Below are positions 3,478-62,001 of a stretch of 64,000 nucleotides of DNA, piece after piece. The first letter of the stretch is position 1, and every line of letters starts with the position of its first letter. This DNA comes from an uncultured Gemmiger sp. (lineage in GTDB: Bacteria > Bacillota > Clostridia > Oscillospirales > Ruminococcaceae): contig CALXHQ010000006.1 of the NCBI GenBank assembly GCA_944388145.1, forward strand, positions 62,001-126,000, read 5' to 3'. The position numbers and the translations under genes were made by a program. Under the pieces are notes generated by a model. It was not told the origin of the DNA and ran no database searches. It saw nothing but the letters and a program-made list of their open reading frames with translations.

Positions 3478-4569
3478 TCAGACAAAGCGGGTCACGTCCT
3501 GGAAGGTAACAAAGACCATCAAAAGCAAAAGCAATATCATCCCCACGGCATTGATGGCGCCCTGCACCTTTTCCGGCACAGCATGGCCGGAAATGCCCTC
3601 GATGGCCAGAAAGAGCAGCTTGCAGCCATCCAGCCCAGGAATCGGTAGCAGGTTGAATACCCCCACATTGACGGCGATCAGCGCGGCAATGCTGAGCACG
3701 TCCGCCAGGCCGTAGCTGACGGCCTCACCAATGACGGTGACAATTCCCACCGGGCCGGACAGCTCATTCAAGCCGACACGGCCAGTGGCCAGATCCAGAA
3801 AACTGCGCAGGATAACCCGCGCATAGTACATAAAATTGTTGAATGCGGCGCGCACCACAGCTTTGGGCGATTTTGCAATGCCGTAGACGGTGAAGTCCAA
3901 CACCATGGTGGTATTGCCATTCTCGTCGGTATTGGTGGAGAACTGCACGTTCGGTACGCTGGTAATCTTGCCATCGCGCACCACCGTAAAGTCGGCGGTA
4001 TAATTGGGCGTGCGCTGCAACTCATAAACAATGTCGTTAGCCGTAAAGCAGTAGTGCCCGTTCACGGCGACGATCTCGTCCTCTGGCTGGAGCCCTGTCT
4101 GCTGGCTGAGTGCCCCGTCGGAGAAACCGTAGATAATTTTGCTGGTGATGGCATCCTGAGTACACACCAGGACGATCAGCAGCAGAAACCCCAGCACAAA
4201 ATTCATCAGCGCACCGCTGGCGATGATAAAAAAACGCTGGCCAACAGTGGCTTCCGGGTAGGTTTTGCCCCGGATCAGATCCGGCAGAACGGGCGCACCC
4301 TTGGGCTTTTTCACCGGCGTTTGGCTTTCCGCATCTGCGTCATCCCCAAGTCCGGACATGGCATTGTACCCGCCCAGCGGCAGCAGGCGGACGCTGTACA
4401 GTGTGCCATCCTTCCCTTCATGCTGCCAGATGGCCGGACCAAATCCTATGGAAAACTCCACCACATGGACCCCGCAGCGGCGCGCCGCCTGAAAATGGCC
4501 CCATTCGTGAATCAGTACCACCGCACCAAACACCAGCACGGCAACAACGATCGTGAGAACTGTTGTCAT
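3478..4569 (-). CDS. rseP: RIP metalloprotease RseP/RasP, site-2 protease (M50)
   Basis: Intramembrane zinc protease that clips membrane-bound anti-sigma factors and signal-peptide remnants. The zinc-binding HEWGH motif lies in the first membrane segment (residues 21-25 from the chosen start). A PDZ domain follows in the middle (GLQPEDEIVAVNGH), and the third zinc ligand sits in NLLPIPGLDGCKLL near the C-terminus. About 363 residues, normal for the family. I chose the ATG at 4569, directly after GAGGTG. An in-frame GTG two codons upstream overlaps the ribosome site and is less likely. It sits between dxr and ispG, as in many Clostridia. Confidence 0.94.
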   Translation of the reverse strand: MTTVLTIVVAVLVFGAVVLIHEWGHFQAARRCGVHVVEFSIGFGPAIWQHEGKDGTLYSVRLLPLGGYNAMSGLGDDADAESQTPVKKPKGAPVLPDLIRGKTYPEATVGQRFFIIASGALMNFVLGFLLLIVLVCTQDAITSKIIYGFSDGALSQQTGLQPEDEIVAVNGHYCFTANDIVYELQRTPNYTADFTVVRDGKITSVPNVQFSTNTDENGNTTMVLDFTVYGIAKSPKAVVRAAFNNFMYYARVILRSFLDLATGRVGLNELSGPVGIVTVIGEAVSYGLADVLSIAALIAVNVGVFNLLPIPGLDGCKLLFLAIEGISGHAVPEKVQGAINAVGMILLLLLMVFVTFQDVTRFV

Positions 4570-22322: not shown

Positions 22323-24197
22323 CTACCTGGTTCGCATATTCGGGAAGAACTGCCGGGCGCTGACCAGGCTGTTATTATAGTACATCTCAAAATGGCAGTG
22401 GCTGCCGAAGGAATAGCCGGTATTGCCCACATAGCCGATGACCTGGCCGGCCTCCACCGCCTGGCCGGTGCTGACGGCAAAGGCGCTCATGTGGCCATAG
22501 AGCGTTTTCCAGCCGTTGCCATGGTCGATAATCACATAATTGCCGTACCCATAGGGGTGGTTATGCCAGCCGGCCACTTCCACCACGCCGCTGTCCGCCG
22601 CAATGATGGGCGTGCCCGTGGGCGCCACAATGTCCGCCCCCTTATGGTCAGCGTTCATCCACCGGCTGACATAGCGGTAATTGGGCACCGGCCAGTACCA
22701 GGTGCCGCTGCCCGTGTGGGCCACCATGCCGCTGGCAAGATGGGTGCCGATGAGCACCTGCTCATTCACGGTGGGCTCAATGACATTGATCTGAACAATG
22801 CTTACATCCATGATGTTGCCGTCGATGTAGGTCACATCGCTGATGACCTCCTGCTGGCCGTTCTGGCCCTCCTGCACCACCACGCGATCGCCGAAATCAT
22901 ATTCGTCGGATTCCATCTCAACTGTCTGATAGGGCACCTGTTCCACCACCGACTGGCGTTGGACCACCTTGACCAGCAGCAGCTCGGCCGAGGGCTTCGA
23001 TACAGTCAGAACGGTACCTGCATCCAGCTTGGTGTCGGCGTCCCCCATATCCGGGTTCAGCGACTGAAGCGCCGCCAGCTCCACGCCCAGCGTCTCGGAA
23101 ATTTCCAGGGCAGTCTGGCCGCCCTCCGGCACCGTGTAGCTGGAGCCTGGCGTCACCTCATTGAGGGTGTTCAGGATGGTATCATAGGGGACTATGGAGG
23201 ACAGGAAATATACGCCGTCCACCAGCTGAATATCATGAACAAATTCGGCCCGGCGGCTGTCGTCGAAGGCATCCTCATAAGGTGCCTTGATGGCCTCCAG
23301 ATAGGCGCGCAGATGGTCCCCCTGATCGGTGACAAAGCGCAGCTCGCCGTCAATATACACAGCAGTCCCATCACCGATCTCATTGCTGGAAGCCCGCATG
23401 ATAGCGTCCGCCACCTCGGTTTCGGTCATCACATTGTCCGAAACTGCCAGCGTGTAGGTGGGGGAAATATCCCACTGGGTACTGCCGGTATCGGCGCCGG
23501 CGGCCTGCATGGCGGCGCGGGCACTGGCGATACGGGACTGAACGTCATCCCGGGCAGAGTCAAACACCTGCTCGCTGGCCACATAGCCCACTGTCTCACC
23601 ATTGACACGCACTTCCAGATGATAGGTCACATCCAGTTGGCTGCGGACCACCCAGATCAGGCAGGCCAGTGCCGCCACCGGCAAAACATAGGCGAACGCA
23701 TTCCACACCAGCGGCAGGTAGAGTTTTGTGCCGCGCTTGAAATACTGCACCTTTTCGGCGCGAATCTGGCGGGCGCTTTCCTCCGGGTACTGATCAGACA
23801 ACTGCCGGATATGCCGTACGCCGGAAGCCAGACGCACAAACGGCTGGAACAGGTCTTCGAGGAAGGTGACCAGGCCGATGCCCAGCGGACGCAGGATCAA
23901 AAACAGAAGGCTCCCCACATGGGAGCAGATCGCCACTGCTGCCCGCAAAAACGCACGGGCCGCACAGATCACGGCATACTCGGCCCAAAAACCCACCATG
24001 TACAGGGCATCCCCCACAACGCCCGCATGGGGCAGACGGTGAAGCAGCTCCTGATAATGGTCACGCCGGGCCTGACGCTTTTGTCGATGGTGCCAGCGCC
24101 GCACAGTCGATTTGACGCGGTGCTCATCCAGCCAACGGGAAAAAACGCTGCGCCGGGGTTGGGCTGTATTCTGTTGTTCATCAGTATGTGGCTTCAA
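22323..24197 (-). CDS. membrane-anchored M23 peptidoglycan endopeptidase with LysM and G5 domains (catalytically intact copy)
   Basis: A 624-residue cell-wall hydrolase, first of two tandem paralogues. Order: basic cytoplasmic N-terminus (1-75), hydrophobic segments around 95-115, a main membrane helix near 170-190 (LPVAALACLIWVV), and a conserved extracellular region. These lead to a LysM-like stretch (EISETLGVELAALQSLNP), a G5 domain (about 430-510) and a C-terminal M23 domain. All zinc/catalytic residues are present: HKGADIVAP, LYGHMS and SHCHFEM. The TTG start at 24197 has AAGGAG eight bases upstream. It probably cleaves peptide stems in peptidoglycan during growth. Confidence 0.9.
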   Translation of the reverse strand: MKPHTDEQQNTAQPRRSVFSRWLDEHRVKSTVRRWHHRQKRQARRDHYQELLHRLPHAGVVGDALYMVGFWAEYAVICAARAFLRAAVAICSHVGSLLFLILRPLGIGLVTFLEDLFQPFVRLASGVRHIRQLSDQYPEESARQIRAEKVQYFKRGTKLYLPLVWNAFAYVLPVAALACLIWVVRSQLDVTYHLEVRVNGETVGYVASEQVFDSARDDVQSRIASARAAMQAAGADTGSTQWDISPTYTLAVSDNVMTETEVADAIMRASSNEIGDGTAVYIDGELRFVTDQGDHLRAYLEAIKAPYEDAFDDSRRAEFVHDIQLVDGVYFLSSIVPYDTILNTLNEVTPGSSYTVPEGGQTALEISETLGVELAALQSLNPDMGDADTKLDAGTVLTVSKPSAELLLVKVVQRQSVVEQVPYQTVEMESDEYDFGDRVVVQEGQNGQQEVISDVTYIDGNIMDVSIVQINVIEPTVNEQVLIGTHLASGMVAHTGSGTWYWPVPNYRYVSRWMNADHKGADIVAPTGTPIIAADSGVVEVAGWHNHPYGYGNYVIIDHGNGWKTLYGHMSAFAVSTGQAVEAGQVIGYVGNTGYSFGSHCHFEMYYNNSLVSARQFFPNMRTR

Positions 24198-24385: not shown

Positions 24386-26257
24386 TCAGTCATCAATTTC
24401 CGGGAAATAGTCCCGCGGGCTGACCGCCGTACCCTCATAGAACATCTCAAAATGGCAATGGTTGCCAGTGGACAAGCCTGTGCTGCCCACATAACCAATG
24501 GTGTCGCCCGCCGAAACATGCTGCCCCACAGAAACGGCAAACCCGGACATCTGCGCATACAGCGTCTGCCAGCCATTGCCGTGATCGATGACCACATAGT
24601 AGCCATAGGTGGGGTTGTTCTCGGCGGTGATGACAATGCCGGTGTCAGCTGCCACAATCTCAGCACCAAAGCGCGCCTTGATGTCGGCGGCGGGACGGCC
24701 ATTCTCGACCCAGCGGTCTACGCCGGTGTACTCCGGCACGGGCCAGAGGAAGGTACCGGTACCGGCCTGTGCGATCATATTGCTTTCCACATGAGTGCCC
24801 ACCAGGACCTGCTCCGAGACCGGGGGCAGCACCGTGACGATGTTTACAATGGTGATATCCACCGGCTCGCCGTTGATGTAGGTGACATCCTGCACCACTT
24901 CCTGCTGGCCCAGCTGCCCCTCCTGTACCACGACTTTCTCACCGAGAGCGTACTCATCGGAGGGTGTCTCCACCGTATCGTACTGGACATCCTCCAGCAC
25001 CGTCTGGCGGCGTACCACCTCCACCTGGAGCAGTTCTGTCACCGCAGGGGATGTGACCAGTTCCATGCCGGCCGGCAGCAGCTGTTCGGTATCGGTCAGG
25101 CTGGGGTTCAGGTTCTGCAGATCGGCAAAGCTCATTCTCAGTTCGCCGGCCACAGTACCCGCCGTTTGCTCCTCAGACAGAACATAGGTTGTACCGGGGG
25201 TGGTGGCTCCCAGCGTCTGGACAATGCTGTCATAGGGAACAATGGAAGACAGAAAATATACGCCGTCCACCAGCTGAATGTCATGGACGAACTCCACCCG
25301 GATGTCTGAGTCAAAGGCATCCTCGTAGGGAGCTTTGATGGCGTCCAGATAGGCGCGCAGATGGTCCCCCTCGGTGGTAACAAAGCGCAGCTCACCGTCG
25401 ATATAGACCGCGGTGCCATCCCCGATCTCGTTGCTGGAAGCCCGCAGGATCGCGTCGGCCGCCTCCCCTTCCGTCATCACACTGTCTGAAACAGCCAGCG
25501 TATACGTGGGCGAAATATCCCACTGGGCATCATCGGTGGTCACGCCGGAAGCCTCCATCACAGCGCGGGCGCTGGCAATACGGGACTGGACGTCATCACG
25601 GGCAGAGTCAAACACCTGTTCACTGGCCACATAGCCCACCGTTTCGCCGTTGACACGCACTTCCAGATGGTAGGTTCGGCTCATCTGGCCGCGAACCACC
25701 CAGACCAGGCAGACCAGCGCCGCCACTGGCAGTATGTAGGAAAGTGTGTTCCAGACCAGCGGCAGATAGCGCTTGGCGCCGCGCCTGAAATATTGCAGCT
25801 TTTCGGCACGCAGCTGGCGGGTAGTCTCCTCGGGATACTGCTCGGAGATGGCGCGGATGTGCCGCATGCCGGAGGCCAAACGCGCAAACGGCTGGAAAAG
25901 ATCCTCCAGAAAAGTAACCAGACCAATGCCAAGCGGGCGCAGGATCATCAGAATCAGTGAGCCCACAAAGGACAGCACAGCTGCCCCGGCGCGGAGCGCG
26001 GTCCGCCCGGCGGTAATGGCGGCGTACTCGGTCCAGAAGCCCACCATGTACAGGGCCTGACCGATTCCTCCGGCGTGGGGGATCTGCTGCAGCATCTGGC
26101 TGAAACGGTGGCGGCGGGCATCCTTGCGCTGGCGCTTGTGCCAGTGGCGGATAGTTGCCTTGATCTGCCGCTCGTCGCGCCAGACGGAAAAGCCGCCGCG
26201 GCGCCGGGTACGGCGCCCATTGTATTCAGTTGTCGAAGTCCCTCCGTTGGATTTCAC
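24386..26257 (-). CDS. M23-family paralogue with degenerate active site (probable pseudoenzyme)
   Basis: A 623-residue protein with the same architecture as its downstream neighbour. Long identical stretches occur in the extracellular linker (YHLEVRVNGETVGYVASEQ), so the pair arose by duplication. In the M23 domain the first zinc ligand is lost: the intact copy has NADHKGADI, this one ENGRPAADI. The catalytic His is also changed, LYGHMS to LYAQMS. Only the C-terminal HCHFEM is kept. It is therefore unlikely to cut peptidoglycan, and may bind it or regulate its sister as EnvC-type factors do. The GTG at 26257 (AAGGAGAAACTACC upstream) overlaps the end of the pseudouridine synthase gene by 32 bp. 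Confidence 0.85.
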   Translation of the reverse strand: MKSNGGTSTTEYNGRRTRRRGGFSVWRDERQIKATIRHWHKRQRKDARRHRFSQMLQQIPHAGGIGQALYMVGFWTEYAAITAGRTALRAGAAVLSFVGSLILMILRPLGIGLVTFLEDLFQPFARLASGMRHIRAISEQYPEETTRQLRAEKLQYFRRGAKRYLPLVWNTLSYILPVAALVCLVWVVRGQMSRTYHLEVRVNGETVGYVASEQVFDSARDDVQSRIASARAVMEASGVTTDDAQWDISPTYTLAVSDSVMTEGEAADAILRASSNEIGDGTAVYIDGELRFVTTEGDHLRAYLDAIKAPYEDAFDSDIRVEFVHDIQLVDGVYFLSSIVPYDSIVQTLGATTPGTTYVLSEEQTAGTVAGELRMSFADLQNLNPSLTDTEQLLPAGMELVTSPAVTELLQVEVVRRQTVLEDVQYDTVETPSDEYALGEKVVVQEGQLGQQEVVQDVTYINGEPVDITIVNIVTVLPPVSEQVLVGTHVESNMIAQAGTGTFLWPVPEYTGVDRWVENGRPAADIKARFGAEIVAADTGIVITAENNPTYGYYVVIDHGNGWQTLYAQMSGFAVSVGQHVSAGDTIGYVGSTGLSTGNHCHFEMFYEGTAVSPRDYFPEIDD

Positions 26258-27465: not shown

Positions 27466-27828
27466 CAAACGAGTGGAACATACGGCGGCGGGGCGGCTTT
27501 GTCCGCCCTGAGGAAAGTCCGGGCTTTTCAGAGGCATGGCAACTGCTAACGGCAGCCGGGGGTGACCCCAGGGATAGTGCAACAGAAATAGACCGCCCGG
27601 CCGGCAACGGTCGGGTAAGGATGGAAAGGCGAGGTAAGAGCTCACCAGCGCACTGGCGACTTTGCGGCTATGTAAACCCTGTCAGAAGCAACATCCGTAT
27701 GGGACATGATGCGGAGCCTCGCGCGTCCCGGAGATGGCATGCGGGATTTCCCGCGGAGCCTTGCGGCAACGCAAGGTCAAGATAGATCGTCGTTTAATAC
27801 AGAACCCGGCTTACGGTCCAGTCGTTTT
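27466..27828 (+). ncRNA. rnpB: RNase P RNA (bacterial)
   Basis: Catalytic RNA that matures tRNA 5' ends. The universal P4 strands are present: GAGGAAAGTCC (27510-27520) and ACAGAACCCGGCTTACGG (about 27799-27816). So are the conserved AGAAATAGACCGCC and GGTAAGAGCTCACCAG segments. The ends pair as helix P1, AACGA-TGGA (27468-27477) with TCCA-TCGTT (27817-27826). Length is about 363 nt. It faces the sporulation operon convergently and shares a bidirectional terminator with it. Confidence 0.95.
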
Positions 27829-27831
27829 ATC

Positions 27832-27891
27832 AAAACATAACGCGGCTGCCGCAGTGGAAGCTCCACAGCGGCAGCCGCGTTTTATGTTTTG
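27832..27891. terminator. bidirectional terminator between rnpB and bofA
   Basis: GC-rich 12-bp stem (27841-27852 with 27868-27879) extended by AAAACATAA/TTATGTTTT flanks. It serves rnpB on the plus strand and the sipL-spoIVA-yaaL-bofA operon on the minus strand. Confidence 0.88.
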
Positions 27892-27907: not shown

Positions 27908-28159
27908 TTACAGCAGCAGCTGCAAAAGCAGCACCCCCACCACGCCAGGAACCCCCAGCACGGTGGCCGCAAAACCGGTAAACGGGTTCAACGGCAGCGT
28001 AACGCCGGTATAGGGAGCCAACAGTGCCACCGCGGCAAGCCCGGCCACACCGCAGACCGCGCTGGCCAGCAGCCCCAGCAGAGCGTGTTTTTGCCGGGCC
28101 GCACAACGCGCAACCACTACCACGCAGATGGCACCGGCTGCCATCAGCCAGATGGGCAT
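27908..28159 (-). CDS. bofA: pro-sigma-K processing inhibitor BofA family protein
   Basis: In Bacillus, BofA holds the SpoIVFB protease inactive in the outer forespore membrane until the engulfed spore signals. This 83-residue protein has hydrophobic segments and the family's C-terminal signature GVTLPLNPFTGFAATVLGVPGV. The ATG at 28159 follows GGGAGGTGACACTCC and overlaps the yaaL end by 16 bp. In Bacillus, bofA follows recR-yaaL; here yaaL-bofA are attached to spoIVA. Whether sigma-K processing exists in this organism cannot be judged, as spoIVFB is not in the window. Confidence 0.85.
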   Translation of the reverse strand: MPIWLMAAGAICVVVVARCAARQKHALLGLLASAVCGVAGLAAVALLAPYTGVTLPLNPFTGFAATVLGVPGVVGVLLLQLLL

Positions 28160-28359
28160 GGAGTGTCACCTCCCCGCACATCCCGCAGCAGTGCCCGGTA
28201 ATGGCACATCAGCGCCGCCCGCTCGTAAACCAATTGTTCGACAATCAACGGGTCCTGTACCTGGGCAAATCGACGGTCGTTTTCGGCCAGTGCATCCGCC
28301 ACGGCGGCCAGCTCCGCCTGCCGTGCGCGGCGCTGTCTGTCCTTTGCCAAAAAGCGCAT
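28144..28359 (-). CDS. yaaL: YaaL-like small protein (DUF2508)
   Basis: A 71-residue, highly charged helical protein with the DUF2508 pattern: basic N-terminus, alternating Ala/Leu/Glu helix, then DPLIVEQLVYERAALMCHYRALLRD. No catalytic residues and no membrane segment. The ATG at 28359 has GGGGGAGG nine bases upstream and lies 16 bp after spoIVA. It is translationally coupled to bofA. The yaaL-bofA pairing matches Bacillus. Molecular role is unknown. Confidence 0.75.
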   Translation of the reverse strand: MRFLAKDRQRRARQAELAAVADALAENDRRFAQVQDPLIVEQLVYERAALMCHYRALLRDVRGGDTPCPSG

Positions 28360-28375
28360 GGCATCGCCTCCCCCG

Positions 28376-29851
28376 TCACAGCAAAATGCAGATCAGTCCA
28401 TCGCAGCCATCGTTGATGATGCGCTCCAGCGTCACTTGCAGACGGCTGCGGGCCTCCTGGGGCATATGCAGCAACTTGGCCTGTACCCCCTCATTTACCA
28501 GCTCGTTGAGGCTTTTGCCAAAAATGTTCGTGTTCCACAGCTTTCCGGGGTCGCTCTCGAAATCCTGCAAAATGCTGCGGATCAGCTCCTCCCCCTGCTG
28601 CTCACTGCCCACACTGGGGGAGATTTCGGTATGGATGGTGGCTTTCATGATATGCAGCGAGGGTGCACTGGCCGACAATCGCACCCCGTACTGGCCCCCC
28701 TGGCGGACAATCTCAGGCTCTTCCAACGTCAGCTCATCGATGTCCGGCATAACAATGCCGTAACCTGTGGCATCCACCTGGTCCAAAGCCCCTTTGATCT
28801 TGTCATAGGCCCGCTTGGCCCTGGCCAAGCTGACCACACAGGGCAGTAGCGTGGCTTCGTCCACGATATCCAGCCCGGTCTGCTCCCCCAGAATCCGGTA
28901 GAAAATGTCGGATGAAAGTTTCAGTGTGATGTGCACGCTGCCGGTGGCCAAATCCATACCACAGAGGCTGGCTCCCGTGAGGTATTCACAGTCAATGGCT
29001 GGGGTTTGCCCGGCCACATCCCGCATGCGCTGAATGCCTGCCGCGTATTGCTGCAAGGCACCGTACACAGCGTTTTGCAGCCAGTGACCGGGCTCCAGCA
29101 TGGTAACCCAGTGGGGCATATTGACAGCGATCTCCTGGACCGGAAACTCGTACAACAGCTGTTTGAGGATGGTGTCCAGCTTTTCGGCAGTGATCTGGGT
29201 GCAGTTGACCGGAATGACGGGATGCCCGTAGTCCCGCTCCAGGCCGGCGGCAAGGCTGCGGCTGGCCTCGCTGTCCGGATCCACACAGTTGAGAAGGATC
29301 AGGTAGGGTTTGCCAATGTCATTCAGCTCGGCAATGATGCGCTGTTCGGCGTCCAGGTAGTTTTCCCGGGGAATCTCGGCAATACTGCCGTCTGTAGTGA
29401 CCACCAGCCCGACAGTGGCATGTTCCCGGATGACCCGACGGGTGCCGGTCTCGGCGGCCAGGTCGAAGGGAACCGCCTTATCAAACCAGGGGCTTTTGAC
29501 CAGGCGCGGGGCATTGTTCTCTTCATGGCCCAGGGCCCCCTGAACCATGTACCCCACACAGTCCACCAGCCGGGCGCGGAAACTTCCGCCGCCGGACAGC
29601 TCCACCTCCACCGCCTTTTCCGGGATGAACTTGGGCTCGGTGGTCATAATGGTGCGCCCCGCTGCCGACTGGGGCAGTTCATCGGTGGCGCGGGCTCGCT
29701 GGGCCTCGTTTTGGATATGGGGCAGAAGCATCAGCTCGGCAAAACGCTTGATCAGGGTACTTTTGCCGCTGCGCACCGGCCCCACAACGCCGATATAGAT
29801 GTCGCCGCCGGTGCGCTGGGCAATGTTCTGGTAAATTTGTTCCTGCGTCAC
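28376..29851 (-). CDS. spoIVA: stage IV sporulation protein A, coat basement-layer ATPase
   Basis: Cytoskeletal ATPase that polymerises on the forespore surface and forms the base of the spore coat. The 491-residue protein is the family length. N-terminal TRAFAC-type NTPase: Walker A GVVGPVRSGKST, switch/Walker B region RARLVDCVGYMV, and LVVTTDGSIAEIPRENY. The C-terminus ends in GCDGLICILL, the region SpoVM and SipL contact in other species. The GTG at 29851 has AAAGGAGG seven bases upstream and gives the canonical VTQEQIYQNIAQRT start. It is 14 bp downstream of sipL and 16 bp upstream of yaaL. Confidence 0.97.
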   Translation of the reverse strand: MTQEQIYQNIAQRTGGDIYIGVVGPVRSGKSTLIKRFAELMLLPHIQNEAQRARATDELPQSAAGRTIMTTEPKFIPEKAVEVELSGGGSFRARLVDCVGYMVQGALGHEENNAPRLVKSPWFDKAVPFDLAAETGTRRVIREHATVGLVVTTDGSIAEIPRENYLDAEQRIIAELNDIGKPYLILLNCVDPDSEASRSLAAGLERDYGHPVIPVNCTQITAEKLDTILKQLLYEFPVQEIAVNMPHWVTMLEPGHWLQNAVYGALQQYAAGIQRMRDVAGQTPAIDCEYLTGASLCGMDLATGSVHITLKLSSDIFYRILGEQTGLDIVDEATLLPCVVSLARAKRAYDKIKGALDQVDATGYGIVMPDIDELTLEEPEIVRQGGQYGVRLSASAPSLHIMKATIHTEISPSVGSEQQGEELIRSILQDFESDPGKLWNTNIFGKSLNELVNEGVQAKLLHMPQEARSRLQVTLERIINDGCDGLICILL

Positions 29852-29865
29852 GTCGGGTCCTCCTT

Positions 29866-31407
29866 TCACAGCGCTGCCGGAATAAGCAGGCAGGCTTTCT
29901 CGGTGGTCATTTCCTGCAGCGGCGTGCCGGTGTCGTCCAGATGGTTGGCCGCGGCCAGATCTTTGGCGCGGGCATGGTAGCGTTTGGCAATGTCAAAGAT
30001 GCATTCCCCCGCCGAAGCATAGTAGAGGTACAGCGCCGGACCGTCAGACTTATCCGGGAATTCCTCCCCCAGGGCGACATCCTGCACAGCCGGAAGCGCC
30101 TGTACCGCCAGCAGCCAGCCATCCAGACAGATTTCCACCTCCACCCGCAGGCTGCCGCCTGCCCGGGTGGAAATCACCTTGCCTACCGTTGCCGAGGCCC
30201 GCAGGCAGTAATCCGCAGGGGTGCCGGGCAGAGGCTGCGGCAGCCGCCAGGTAAAAGCCCTGTCATAGCAGGTCAGTTCGCCGCGCGGGTCGGCACAGAT
30301 CAGATGGGCGGTGGCTTTGCCGGCAAACAGTACCGAACCGGAATCATCGCCGGGCTGTGCAGCGAGCGCCCCCAGTGTGACAAAGCAGCCCAGTACATCG
30401 GCTTCCGGATCGGGGAGGTCATCGCTGAATTCAGCCTGGACAGTACGGGGCAGATCAGCGGTGGGTGCCAACAGGCGGCAGGCCACCTGTTCCACCTGGG
30501 TTTGGCAGAGGGTGGAGTAGGCGTCAGACACGGCGATGTACTGGACCGCGCGCCACAGCTCGGCATGGAGTTTCCATGTAACAGTCAAAACCGGGTCGGC
30601 AGCGCCCTCCCCTGCTTCCAATGTGCAGGCCAATATCTCACCCCAGAAAAGGCACTCGTCACCCTCGGCGGCACCGGCCACATCCAGCGTCTGGCGGACC
30701 GAGATCTCGGTCTGGCGGCAGACCAGCTCCTCAGTACCGGCCGCACGGTAGATTGCCTGCATTCGCAGCGTTCCCTGACAGTTGAGCTGTCCCGCAACCA
30801 CTGTGGCGCTGTCCGGCAGAAAAACGCCGGAGATATCCAGCACCACTGTGCCGCCACCCGGCATGGCAATCCTGCTCTCTGCGGTGAATGTTTTTTCCTC
30901 CACGACCGCGCAGGACAGGCCATTCATCACGCGGGTGCGCTGCTCGATGCCGCAGTCTGCCAGAGAGGTGACCAGTTCCAGCTGGTCCACCACCTGAACT
31001 GCGACGTTAAGGGCATAGGCCCCCCGCAGATCGATACGGTGCTCACTGATGGCGCGGCAGTTGACGTATTCAGTCTCCCCTGACACCAGGGCCGGCCCCT
31101 GCTGATAGCGGCCTTCCGGCAGGTCCACAGACTTTTCAAAGGGAAATTTCTGTTCGATGCGGTAGAGCTGCGCCCCCGCCTCGTCCGACTGATAATAGAC
31201 GGTACAGCGCAGATAGCCCTCTCCCTGCCACTTTGCGGCAGCGGTATGGTTCTGCATCAGCACCGGTTCAACCAGACATTTCACGATCTTGAACACTGCG
31301 GGCAGATAGTCCGGGATCAGGACCTCCGTCTCCACCGGCAATTCCAGCCTTGTCTCCCACCGGCCGCCATAGGCGGTGACGGTATCTTTGAACACCTTCA
31401 GCTCCAT
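29866..31407 (-). CDS. sipL: SpoIVA-interacting coat morphogenetic protein SipL (DUF3794-LysM)
   Basis: In Clostridioides, SipL binds SpoIVA through its LysM domain and is needed to attach the coat; it replaces Bacillus SpoVID. This 513-residue protein has DUF3794/SPOCS-type repeats (for example RWETRLELPVETEVLIPDYLPAVFKIVK, the segment near IEQRTRVMNGLSC, and a third near DYCLRASATVGKVIST). It ends with a LysM-like domain (LYYASAGECIFDIAKRYHARAKDLAAANHL). The ATG at 31407 follows AAAGGGG. The longer frame to 31509 crosses the promoter. Direct adjacency to spoIVA and spoVM strongly supports the assignment. Confidence 0.9.
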   Translation of the reverse strand: MELKVFKDTVTAYGGRWETRLELPVETEVLIPDYLPAVFKIVKCLVEPVLMQNHTAAAKWQGEGYLRCTVYYQSDEAGAQLYRIEQKFPFEKSVDLPEGRYQQGPALVSGETEYVNCRAISEHRIDLRGAYALNVAVQVVDQLELVTSLADCGIEQRTRVMNGLSCAVVEEKTFTAESRIAMPGGGTVVLDISGVFLPDSATVVAGQLNCQGTLRMQAIYRAAGTEELVCRQTEISVRQTLDVAGAAEGDECLFWGEILACTLEAGEGAADPVLTVTWKLHAELWRAVQYIAVSDAYSTLCQTQVEQVACRLLAPTADLPRTVQAEFSDDLPDPEADVLGCFVTLGALAAQPGDDSGSVLFAGKATAHLICADPRGELTCYDRAFTWRLPQPLPGTPADYCLRASATVGKVISTRAGGSLRVEVEICLDGWLLAVQALPAVQDVALGEEFPDKSDGPALYLYYASAGECIFDIAKRYHARAKDLAAANHLDDTGTPLQEMTTEKACLLIPAAL

Positions 31408-31510
31408 AATGCGCTTGCCCCTTTCTGCGGGTGTATATCTAAAACCGTAAAGCGCAGCGCCAAGGCCAGGGCTGCACCGCCATGCCTGTCGGTGCGCTTT
31501 CTTGTGCATC

Positions 31511-31534
31511 TATATGCGGGCATGGTGAAAAATA
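31511..31534 (-). promoter_or_regulatory. candidate sigma-E promoter of sipL-spoIVA-yaaL-bofA
   Basis: Minus strand TATTTTT (31534-31528) and CATATAGAT (31516-31508), with about 15 bp between the TAT of the -35 and the -10. This resembles sigma-E elements (ATATTTT / CATACAAT), with three mismatches in the -10. It lies about 100 bp upstream of sipL and downstream of the spoVM terminator. Confidence 0.35.
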
Positions 31535-31551
31535 GGCATACGAAAATGGGC

Positions 31552-31594
31552 AAAAGAAAGCCCCGGTCCGTCCTTGTTCAGGACAGTACCGGGG
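31552..31594 (-). terminator. terminator downstream of spoVM
   Basis: Imperfect stem CCCCGGTCCGTCC/GGACAGTACCGGGG (31561-31573 with 31581-31594), followed on the minus strand by CTTTCTTTT (31560-31552). Confidence 0.75.
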
Positions 31595-31605
31595 TTGGGC
31601 AGAAT

Positions 31606-31677
31606 TTACTTCACCTTAAAGACAGCGCGCAGCAGCCAGCTGAGGGCCTTTGGACATTTGACAACGACAATTTGCAT
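31606..31677 (-). CDS. spoVM: SpoVM, spore-coat membrane-curvature peptide
   Basis: A 23-residue micro-ORF, starting MQIVVVKCPKALSWLLRAVF and ending Lys-Val-Lys. It aligns without gaps to Bacillus SpoVM (MKFYTIKLPKFLGGIVRAML...): Lys7, Pro9, Lys10, Leu12, Arg17 and Ala18 match. Pro9 is the residue that lets the amphipathic helix lie shallowly in convex membrane. The ATG at 31677 has a near-perfect GGGAGGTG ribosome site. It has its own terminator and a sigma-E-like -10, and it sits just upstream of sipL-spoIVA, its functional partners. SpoVM anchors SpoIVA to the forespore surface. Confidence 0.9.
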   Translation of the reverse strand: MQIVVVKCPKALSWLLRAVFKVK

Positions 31678-31718
31678 GGCACACACCTCCCAATCTGCCT
31701 TTTCAGGCCGTGTATGCC

Positions 31719-31743
31719 ATTGTATGCCGCCGTACAAAGATGT
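31719..31743 (-). promoter_or_regulatory. sigma-E promoter candidate of spoVM
   Basis: Minus strand CATACAAT (31726-31719) is an exact sigma-E -10 consensus, about 40 bp before the spoVM start codon. The -35 region (around ACATCTT, 31743-31737) is a poor match and spaced short. The element overlaps the end of thiN. Confidence 0.5.
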
Positions 31744-31744
31744 G

Positions 31745-32392
31745 TCACATTGGCTGGTCCGCCCGGGTCAGCACCACCAGGCCGCTGCCGCCGGTACAGG
31801 CGAGGCGGGCCTGGGGGGCAGTAAACTCATTGCTGACACCCAGGGGAAAATTCGGTGCCAACACGGCGTTTTGCAGTGGATAGAACACGCCGGAGATATC
31901 CACGCCAGTGAGCGGGCCATCCAGCGGAAAGACTGAAAGATACATCCAGTCCGCGCGTTCCAGCGTCAAAGGATGGCCGGGCAACAGGTAGTGCAGCTCA
32001 CTGCGCTCATCGGCAAGGCGGGTCCTCACTCCGCTTTTGGCCAAAAACAGACCGGTGGCAAGGTTGGCCAGCGTGTGTTCCAAACGCTTGCCCCCCAAGG
32101 CGCCCAGCATCGTAACTCTCTTTGCTCCCCGCTCCACAAGCCAACGCGCAGCAAAGTGGGTGTCGGTGTCATCCTTGACGTGGGGCAATACGATGGTGTG
32201 ATCGTTTTCTGTGGGCTTGGGGGCGGAGTCAAAGTCACCGACAATCAGGTCGGGCGTGATACCAAGATGCTCCGCATTGCGGTAGCCTGCGTCGCAGGCG
32301 ATAATGCAGTCGCAATCGGTCAGATAATGCCGCAATTGCGAAGTCACCGGACAGGCGGACAGGATTACGGCGTGTTGGATAGGGGGATACAT
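31745..32392 (-). CDS. thiN: thiamine pyrophosphokinase
   Basis: Transfers pyrophosphate from ATP to thiamine, giving the cofactor TPP. The 215-residue protein has IIACDAGYRNAEHLGITPDLIVGDFDS and HVKDDTDTHFAARW, the substrate and metal motifs of the ThiN/TPK fold. ALGGKRLEHTLANL follows. The ATG at 32392 has GGAGGTG upstream; the 26-residue extension overlaps rsgA and lacks similarity. Last gene of the long prkC operon; rpe, usually just upstream, is absent. Confidence 0.93.
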   Translation of the reverse strand: MYPPIQHAVILSACPVTSQLRHYLTDCDCIIACDAGYRNAEHLGITPDLIVGDFDSAPKPTENDHTIVLPHVKDDTDTHFAARWLVERGAKRVTMLGALGGKRLEHTLANLATGLFLAKSGVRTRLADERSELHYLLPGHPLTLERADWMYLSVFPLDGPLTGVDISGVFYPLQNAVLAPNFPLGVSNEFTAPQARLACTGGSGLVVLTRADQPM

Positions 32393-61077: not shown

Positions 61078-62001
61078 ATGCGCCGGTATCATCCCGAGCG
61101 GCCTGCCCTGCCGCCCCACCGGCAGAAACGGCGCCGCCCTGACCCGGAGGCCCGGGCGGCATTTTTGTTTCTGCTGCCCAGCGTGGCAGGCACCGCCCTG
61201 TTTGTACTGCTGCCCTTTGCCGAGACAGTGCGCCGAAGCTTCTTTGACGCGCCGGGCCGCCGTTTTGTCGGGCTGGAAAACTACCGCAGCGTTCTGCAAA
61301 ACAGCGCCTTTCAGCTGGCGGCGAAAAACACGGCCCGCTTTTTGTGTACCTGTGTGCCGGCTCTGCTTCTGATCAGTTTGCTGCTGGCACTGGGGGTACG
61401 GGCGGTGGCAAGGCGCCGCGACGGCAGCAGCACCCGCCGGGGCAGGGTGCTGCGCACCAGCTACCTGTTGCCCATGGCAATTCCTGTGGCGAGCATTGTG
61501 ATCCTGTGGCAGGCCTTGTTTGCCAAAAACGGGTTGATCAACGGCGCGCTTACCGCCCTGGGGGTGCCGCCGGTGGATTTTATGGGCACGGGGGCAGCTT
61601 TCTGGGTGCTGGTAGCCACCTATGTCTGGAAAAATGCCGGGTACAACATGATCCTGTGGCTGGCCGGGCTGGACGGCATCCCCGCCGATCTGTACGAGGC
61701 CGCTGCCGTGGACGGCGCCAATGCCTGGCAAAAGTTTTGGCACATCACGCTGCCCAACCTGCTGCCCACATTGGCGCTGGTGGGGGTACTCAGCCTGCTG
61801 AACAGCTTCAAAGCCTTTCGGGAAGCTTTTTTGGTGGGTGGGAACTATCCCCACCAAAGCATGTACCTGTTGCAGCATCTGTTCAACAACTGGTTTCTCA
61901 CGCTGGACCTGCCGCGGTTGACGGCCGCAGCCGTGTTGATGGCACTGGCTGTGTCCGGGCTGATCCTGGCGTTGCAGCGGCTTTGGAACCGCGGCGAGTG
62001 A
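61078..62001 (+). CDS. CUT1-family sugar ABC transporter permease 1 (MalF/UgpA type)
   Basis: A 307-residue protein with six or so membrane helices and the EAA loop that contacts the ATPase, LYEAAAVDGANAWQKFWHIT. The basic N-terminus (RRYHPERPALPPHRQKRRRP) is cytoplasmic. ATG at 61078, four bases after the binding-protein stop codon. Confidence 0.93.
   Translation: MRRYHPERPALPPHRQKRRRPDPEARAAFLFLLPSVAGTALFVLLPFAETVRRSFFDAPGRRFVGLENYRSVLQNSAFQLAAKNTARFLCTCVPALLLISLLLALGVRAVARRRDGSSTRRGRVLRTSYLLPMAIPVASIVILWQALFAKNGLINGALTALGVPPVDFMGTGAAFWVLVATYVWKNAGYNMILWLAGLDGIPADLYEAAAVDGANAWQKFWHITLPNLLPTLALVGVLSLLNSFKAFREAFLVGGNYPHQSMYLLQHLFNNWFLTLDLPRLTAAAVLMALAVSGLILALQRLWNRGE

Follow-up and report, generated by a model that had tools for sequence, protein, structure and literature searches.

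A predicted sipL-spoIVA-yaaL-bofA operon in Gemmiger joins coat-base genes to a putative sigma-K checkpoint gene

We describe a sporulation locus in a 64,000-nucleotide stretch of DNA (the window; positions 62,001 to 126,000 of contig CALXHQ010000006.1, assembly GCA_944388145.1) from an uncultured Gemmiger sp. of the order Oscillospirales. Open reading frames (ORFs), family searches and hairpin folding place spoVM, a terminator, sipL, spoIVA, yaaL, bofA and a second terminator in this order on the minus strand. We suggest that sipL, spoIVA, yaaL and bofA are best read as one four-gene operon and that spoVM most probably forms a unit of its own outside it. This reading follows from the pattern of -10 elements and hairpins. 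A sigma-E-like -10 element stands ahead of sipL in 28 of 29 Gemmiger loci (0.6 expected) and ahead of spoIVA, yaaL and bofA in 0/29 each, and a terminator-like hairpin lies in the spoVM-sipL gap in 24/26. Among the genomes compared the spoIVA-bofA arrangement is seen only in Gemmiger; the locus is a lineage-specific new arrangement of known genes. We think it likely, with good if not full confidence, that it is a genus-specific mother-cell operon, which would tie the dosage of BofA to the coat base while keeping the old timing.

The features of the locus, in window coordinates, are the following.

31745..32392, minus: thiN (thiamine pyrophosphokinase), upstream neighbour (PF04263, E 1.6e-18; PF04265)
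31717..31726, minus: promoter-like -10 element CATACAATGG upstream of spoVM (CATANNATGG kept across Gemmiger)
31606..31677, minus: spoVM, 23-amino-acid (aa) peptide, assigned by place after thiN and conserved residues
31561..31594, minus: likely intrinsic terminator of spoVM (-26.8 kcal/mol, z -4.2)
31508..31516, minus: sigma-E-like -10 element CATATAGAT of the predicted sipL operon
29866..31407, minus: sipL (PF12673, E 1.6e-12)
28376..29851, minus: spoIVA, GTG start (PF09547, PF20438 and PF20439, full length)
28144..28359, minus: yaaL-like gene, diverged DUF2508 (profile comparison with DUF2508 of the order)
27908..28159, minus: bofA (PF07441, E 5.4e-13, 49.3 bits)
27831..27891, strand not applicable: strong hairpin between the convergent bofA and rnpB, likely the bofA terminator, perhaps that of rnpB too (-46.3 kcal/mol, z -10.9)
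27470..27828, plus: rnpB, RNase P RNA class A, convergent with bofA (RF00010, 226 bits)

Promoters, terminators and gene identities

The initial annotation had placed five genes here, the last four closely spaced. They lie on the minus strand, and both their positions and their spacing are confirmed: the sipL-spoIVA gap is 14 bp, the spoIVA-yaaL gap 16 bp and the yaaL/bofA overlap 16 bp. In all 29 distinct Gemmiger loci the same junctions measure 12-22 bp, 10-42 bp and 1-16 bp of overlap, respectively. The best named matches of the window SpoIVA are in Gemmiger genomes, up to 95% identical. bofA is detected in 34/35 Gemmiger genomes, and the spoIVA-yaaL-bofA order is kept in 34/34 of them (30 loci and 4 more); in the remaining genome (G155, about 1110 contigs) neither bofA nor spoIVA is detected. 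All five genes change more at third than at second codon positions across 26-29 loci, a purifying pattern, with the constraint weakest on yaaL (third/second ratio 1.6). With the order kept and the five genes under this pattern, the cluster exceeds chance. One locus (L252) was left out of the counts as the same as L036; those for spoVM also leave out L242, L245 and L038.

The -10 pattern was CATA[CT]A followed after one or two bases by T, with expected counts obtained by shuffling. In many loci a plausible -35 is seen by eye within the T-run of the spoVM terminator. The stem of that terminator is bulged in the window, so a simple terminator scan does not list it. A sigma-70-type scan of the window gives no site inside the predicted operon on the minus strand. 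No terminator-like hairpin is found at the sipL-spoIVA junction in the 29 loci, and the two inner junctions of the window, spoIVA-yaaL included, fold no better than shuffles. Hence, neither a promoter of these two types nor a credible terminator separates the four genes in the window, an outcome opposite to the separate promoters and terminators that the initial annotation had named as refuting it.

The view of the whole cluster as one unit can be retained for sipL to bofA, which are likely one operon, but not for spoVM, from which a terminator divides them. Likewise, an end at one terminator agrees with the strong hairpin after bofA in the window but does not extend to the genus: by script, only 15/29 loci have a terminator-like hairpin within 130 nt after bofA. 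In the window rnpB converges on bofA with this one very strong hairpin in between.

Upstream of spoVM the element CATANNATGG is present in 26/26 Gemmiger loci and differs from the element of sipL. A sigma-E promoter was considered for spoVM; the strict sigma-E-like pattern occurs in only 6/25 loci (the short L235 also left out), so the sigma factor is not assigned.

The gene identities given initially are sound. SpoIVA has its three-domain architecture end to end in Pfam (PF09547, E 1.6e-107; PF20438; PF20439), and the P-loop GxxxxGK[ST] is present in 29/29 Gemmiger loci. SipL carries the SPOCS domain PF12673 (47.9 bits, cut-off 23.6), and a possible C-terminal LysM, PF01476, scores 18.5 bits, under the cut-off of 20.9. 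BofA lies well above the curated PF07441 cut-off of 26.1 bits. PF10704 (DUF2508/YaaL) has no match in the window YaaL protein, nor genome-wide at E 0.001. In a 29-sequence set, a profile of 14 DUF2508 proteins of the order finds the protein with E 2.2e-12 and recovers each distinct Gemmiger copy, 29 in all, with E 8.1e-7 for the weakest. Comparison by hhalign with DUF2508 of the order gives a probability of 96.9% (E 1.9e-10; reversed control 0.2%). By these profiles the Gemmiger protein is a diverged DUF2508, and we call the gene yaaL-like because the PF10704 match is absent. Thus bofA and yaaL do not belong to other families, an outcome that the initial annotation had named as one that would overturn it. 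SpoVM has no relevant Pfam match and its assignment rests on its position after thiN and on conservation. In the 26 Gemmiger copies Pro9 is invariant and position 17 is Arg in 24 and Lys in 2; we take Pro9 to be a key SpoVM residue in B. subtilis.

The locus in relatives of Gemmiger

The synteny survey around spoIVA, proposed earlier as a check, limits spoIVA-bofA adjacency to Gemmiger in the genomes compared. In the order (147 genomes) spoIVA is found in 132, bofA in 72 and DUF2508 in 42. The 67 genomes with both spoIVA and bofA have them on the same contig in 4 cases and adjacent in 1, the window's own genome. In the class (243 genomes) the two are adjacent in 1 of the 124 genomes compared among the matches listed, again the window's own; this comparison covers 150 of 183 genomes with spoIVA, and 24 of 148 with bofA lie outside it. 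In 17 of the 124 one gene lies less than 3 kb from a contig start, where adjacency is possible (a check made for the class only). Second matches of G006, G353 and G390 (bofA) and of G402 (spoIVA), and a weak spoIVA of G146, are left out of the order and class comparisons; their contigs differ anyway.

A distance of 4.7 kb separates spoIVA from bofA in G205 (locus L280, G205:C140) and G233 (locus L279, G233:C58), both of one further genus. The genes are on opposite strands and divergent, and the ORFs between them in G233 look unrelated, so that an operon is rejected there.

DUF2508 lies at most 188 bp from bofA in 34/34 genomes of the order with both matches, and in 8 of the 42 with DUF2508 no bofA was found. 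In 20 stretches read from relatives yaaL-bofA is a free-standing pair, the surroundings of which vary from locus to locus. In B. subtilis, bofA presumably lies in a recR-yaaL-bofA region, with the same yaaL-bofA order as in Gemmiger.

The front of the cluster has a different distribution. sipL stands directly ahead of spoIVA in at least 50 of 105 usable loci and in at least 43 of 98 outside Gemmiger; these are lower bounds, as the DNA upstream of spoIVA is only ~1.5 kb long in L002-L031. Five of the 110 loci, with less than 900 nt, are dropped. thiN lies ~1.7-2.2 kb upstream of spoIVA in 8 of these non-Gemmiger loci. The nearest outgroup locus (L037, SpoIVA identity 64%) reads thiN-spoVM-sipL-spoIVA, and yaaL and bofA are absent from the 3.4 kb behind its spoIVA. 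A hidden Markov model search finds no yaaL or bofA near spoIVA in the non-Gemmiger loci L002-L111, with downstream coverage short for many. Thus, other Oscillospirales and related loci of the form thiN-(spoVM)-sipL-spoIVA share the sipL-spoIVA front with Gemmiger and differ from it in having no detected yaaL or bofA behind. Because sipL-spoIVA adjacency is common outside the genus and the nearest outgroup has the front without yaaL or bofA, we judge it probable that this front is ancient and that bofA was added behind it in Gemmiger. In the literature listings no publication is described as treating a spoIVA-bofA operon, which is weak evidence of its being unreported.

Timing and dosage of BofA

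According to the accessible part of PMC517825, bofA and spoIVA of B. subtilis share one expression class, which sigma-E turns on and SpoIIID afterwards turns off; spoVM is not repressed by SpoIIID, and BofA has to be produced before engulfment ends. The same source puts bofA away from spoIVA (fragment coordinates near 29-30 kb and 2387 kb), so the earlier remark that the Gemmiger layout is not that of Bacillus is borne out to this extent. C. difficile has the same two proteins SipL and SpoIVA, both sigma-E-dependent and SpoIIID-repressed. However, their genes lie at distant loci (CD3567 and CD2629), with a sigma-E promoter mapped upstream of each, as far as the available text of PMC3789822 goes. 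C. difficile is without spoIVFB and bofA in the portion of PMC3533761 accessible to us. The predicted Gemmiger transcript would thus carry two members of this early class together, with spoVM left separate.

We suggest the following sequence of events. In the Gemmiger stem the yaaL-bofA pair would have become the immediate downstream neighbour of a sipL-spoIVA unit that was already there. From a single sigma-E-like promoter, close behind the spoVM terminator, sipL-spoIVA-yaaL-bofA would then be transcribed as one mRNA early in the mother cell. SpoIVA and SipL would form the coat base and, if B. subtilis is a guide, BofA made simultaneously would go to the membrane around the forespore. There it would prevent a SpoIVFB-like M50 protease from acting on pro-sigma-K before the SpoIVB signal. 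The relocation would retain the old timing, with BofA dosage becoming tied to the coat base.

The initial annotation held that operon coupling could synchronise the checkpoint with the coat base. Synchrony would not be new, since in B. subtilis both genes are already turned on and off together. Because of this shared class, and because free-standing yaaL of relatives in the order has a sigma-E-like element in 6/14 loci (0.85 expected), the timing was probably conserved in the move. Any novelty of the move would lie in the linkage of dosage and in the transcript being shared. The SpoIIID site ahead of free-standing yaaL is found in 3/14 loci by the strict pattern (1.3 expected) and in 9/14 with one mismatch (6.2 expected).

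The same two facts serve a neutral account, in which yaaL-bofA came to lie behind spoIVA by happenstance and is co-transcribed with no effect on the checkpoint. It fits the operon and denies only a benefit of linkage, and we give it a slightly better than even chance. The various placements of yaaL-bofA in relatives also speak for it. On the other side, the order, short gaps and overlap persist across the genus, though vertical descent alone could suffice for that.

Checkpoint partners and remaining alternatives

The likely partners of a sigma-K checkpoint, namely a leader-bearing sigma-K-like factor, SpoIVB and an M23-M50 pair, appear from their sequences to be present in Gemmiger. In the sequences read, namely 4 unsplit loci and two N-terminal halves from split loci, a hydrophobic leader precedes the sigma core; the sigma-K name of this candidate rests on reading. 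SpoIVB (PF05580) is found in 33/35 Gemmiger genomes, the window's own included, and SpoIIID in 35/35. In 20/20 Gemmiger loci, chosen for their M50 match, an M23 frame overlaps the following short M50 frame, in likeness to SpoIVFA-SpoIVFB of B. subtilis. The M50 protein has the HExxH and NxxPxxxxDG motifs, and its profile matches the solved SpoIVFB with E 2.5e-6. It is much shorter than B. subtilis SpoIVFB, about 150-190 aa as cut. The M23 protein keeps HxGxD and HxHF in 20/20, whereas the LytM domain of SpoIVFA is likely inactive, judging from the accessible part of PMC3533761. At L223:5714-7094 (G000:C1) the overlapping M23 and very short M50 frames may be a minimal pair of the SpoIVFA-SpoIVFB kind.

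Two Gemmiger genomes have the sigK candidate split into halves, ~12.5 kb and 29 kb apart (L229, G180:C1:829000-848500; L239 and L240, G154:C13). The split resembles the skin element of other spore-formers, and what precedes the C-terminal half resembles the end of a serine recombinase.

Several observations weigh against the operon with BofA as its timed brake. By script, a weak hairpin followed by T residues is flagged at spoIVA-yaaL in 4/29 loci, the window among them. The SpoIIID site is not enriched ahead of sipL, either by the strict pattern (2/29; 1.5 expected) or with one mismatch (6/29; 8.8 expected). Outside Gemmiger sipL has the sigma-E-like element in only 10/27 loci (2.2 expected), and we consider an older sigma-E promoter ahead of sipL likely in some of these. 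The TIGR02846 cut-off (298.65 bits) is passed in 0/35 Gemmiger genomes; the best candidate in the window's genome reaches 216 bits, and the top match there is the sigma-E neighbour of sigma-G. The same cut-off is passed in none of 14 control genomes, B. subtilis included. The archaeal MJ0392 (E 1.9e-8) outscores SpoIVFB against the M50 profile. Gemmiger sporulation itself is unproven, because PMC6069880, in its accessible part, reports isolates that carry the remaining sporulation genes but no 'spore proteins'. Finally, the residue equivalent to Asn48 of BofA is Ala in 21, Gly in 7 and Arg in 1 of the 29 Gemmiger proteins and Asn in none, and N48A impairs inhibition by BofA in the portion of PMC9042235 available.

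This last point raises the doubtful, though conceivable, alternative that Gemmiger BofA no longer inhibits the SpoIVFB-like protease or contacts it in an altered way. The available parts of PMC9042235 and PMC12632252 state that N48, N61 and T64 all matter for the inhibition. The N48 column, 13 residues before the N61 equivalent (a fixed-distance count agrees with the alignment), also holds Ala or Thr in 5 order proteins of the same family (L142-L146), and because of these the loss of Asn48 may predate Gemmiger. Asn is present there in 12/19 BofA proteins of the order and missing from 7/19, so that its loss may be tolerated. Against a loss of function, the N61 equivalent is kept in 28/29 Gemmiger proteins (Thr in one) and that of T64 in 29/29, better than in the 19 proteins of the order (15 and 9, respectively). 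The purifying pattern on bofA and the retention of the leader-bearing sigma-K-like factor and the M50 protease argue in the same direction. The N48 change lowers the claim of inhibition in the B. subtilis manner, not that of BofA descent.

A separate promoter for bofA or yaaL, located within spoIVA or yaaL, is unlikely; it would leave the checkpoint transcriptionally untied from the coat genes. The genus-wide test used one simple -10 pattern, which other promoter types would escape. However, this pattern is missing ahead of all three inner genes and present ahead of sipL almost throughout, and the sigma-70-type scan of the window is likewise empty within the operon. That the genes are relicts in a genus that stopped sporulating is quite improbable: no publication on Gemmiger spores was noticed in literature listings, but the purifying pattern in all five genes, the conserved promoter elements and the near-universal SpoIVB and SpoIIID speak against decay.

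A bolder extension of the preferred operon reading would wire the sigma-K brake into coat-base production, the BofA dose being set by SpoIVA and SipL output. BofA without Asn48, a catalytic-looking M23 protein and a minimal M50 protease would then make a changed checkpoint, with sigma-K release dependent on the amount of coat base. We regard it as very unlikely.

With the four-gene operon as the preferred reading, the genes of the coat base and of the sigma-K brake belong to a single predicted operon in a defined genus. Genes for BofA, a sigma-K-like factor with a leader, an M23 protein and a SpoIVFB-like protease coexist there. The accessible text of PMC12632252 asks how SpoIVFB is controlled in the absence of SpoIVFA or BofA, and the Gemmiger locus would offer a compact set of parts for this question. 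Its BofA is a natural variant at a residue known to matter.

Elsewhere on the minus strand of the window, two adjoining similar long ORFs (22323-24197 and 24386-26257) end, by their translations, in M23-like peptidase sequences and look like a tandem duplication. A full-length M50 protease, probably RseP, is encoded at 3520-4542 on the same strand (381-aa frame).

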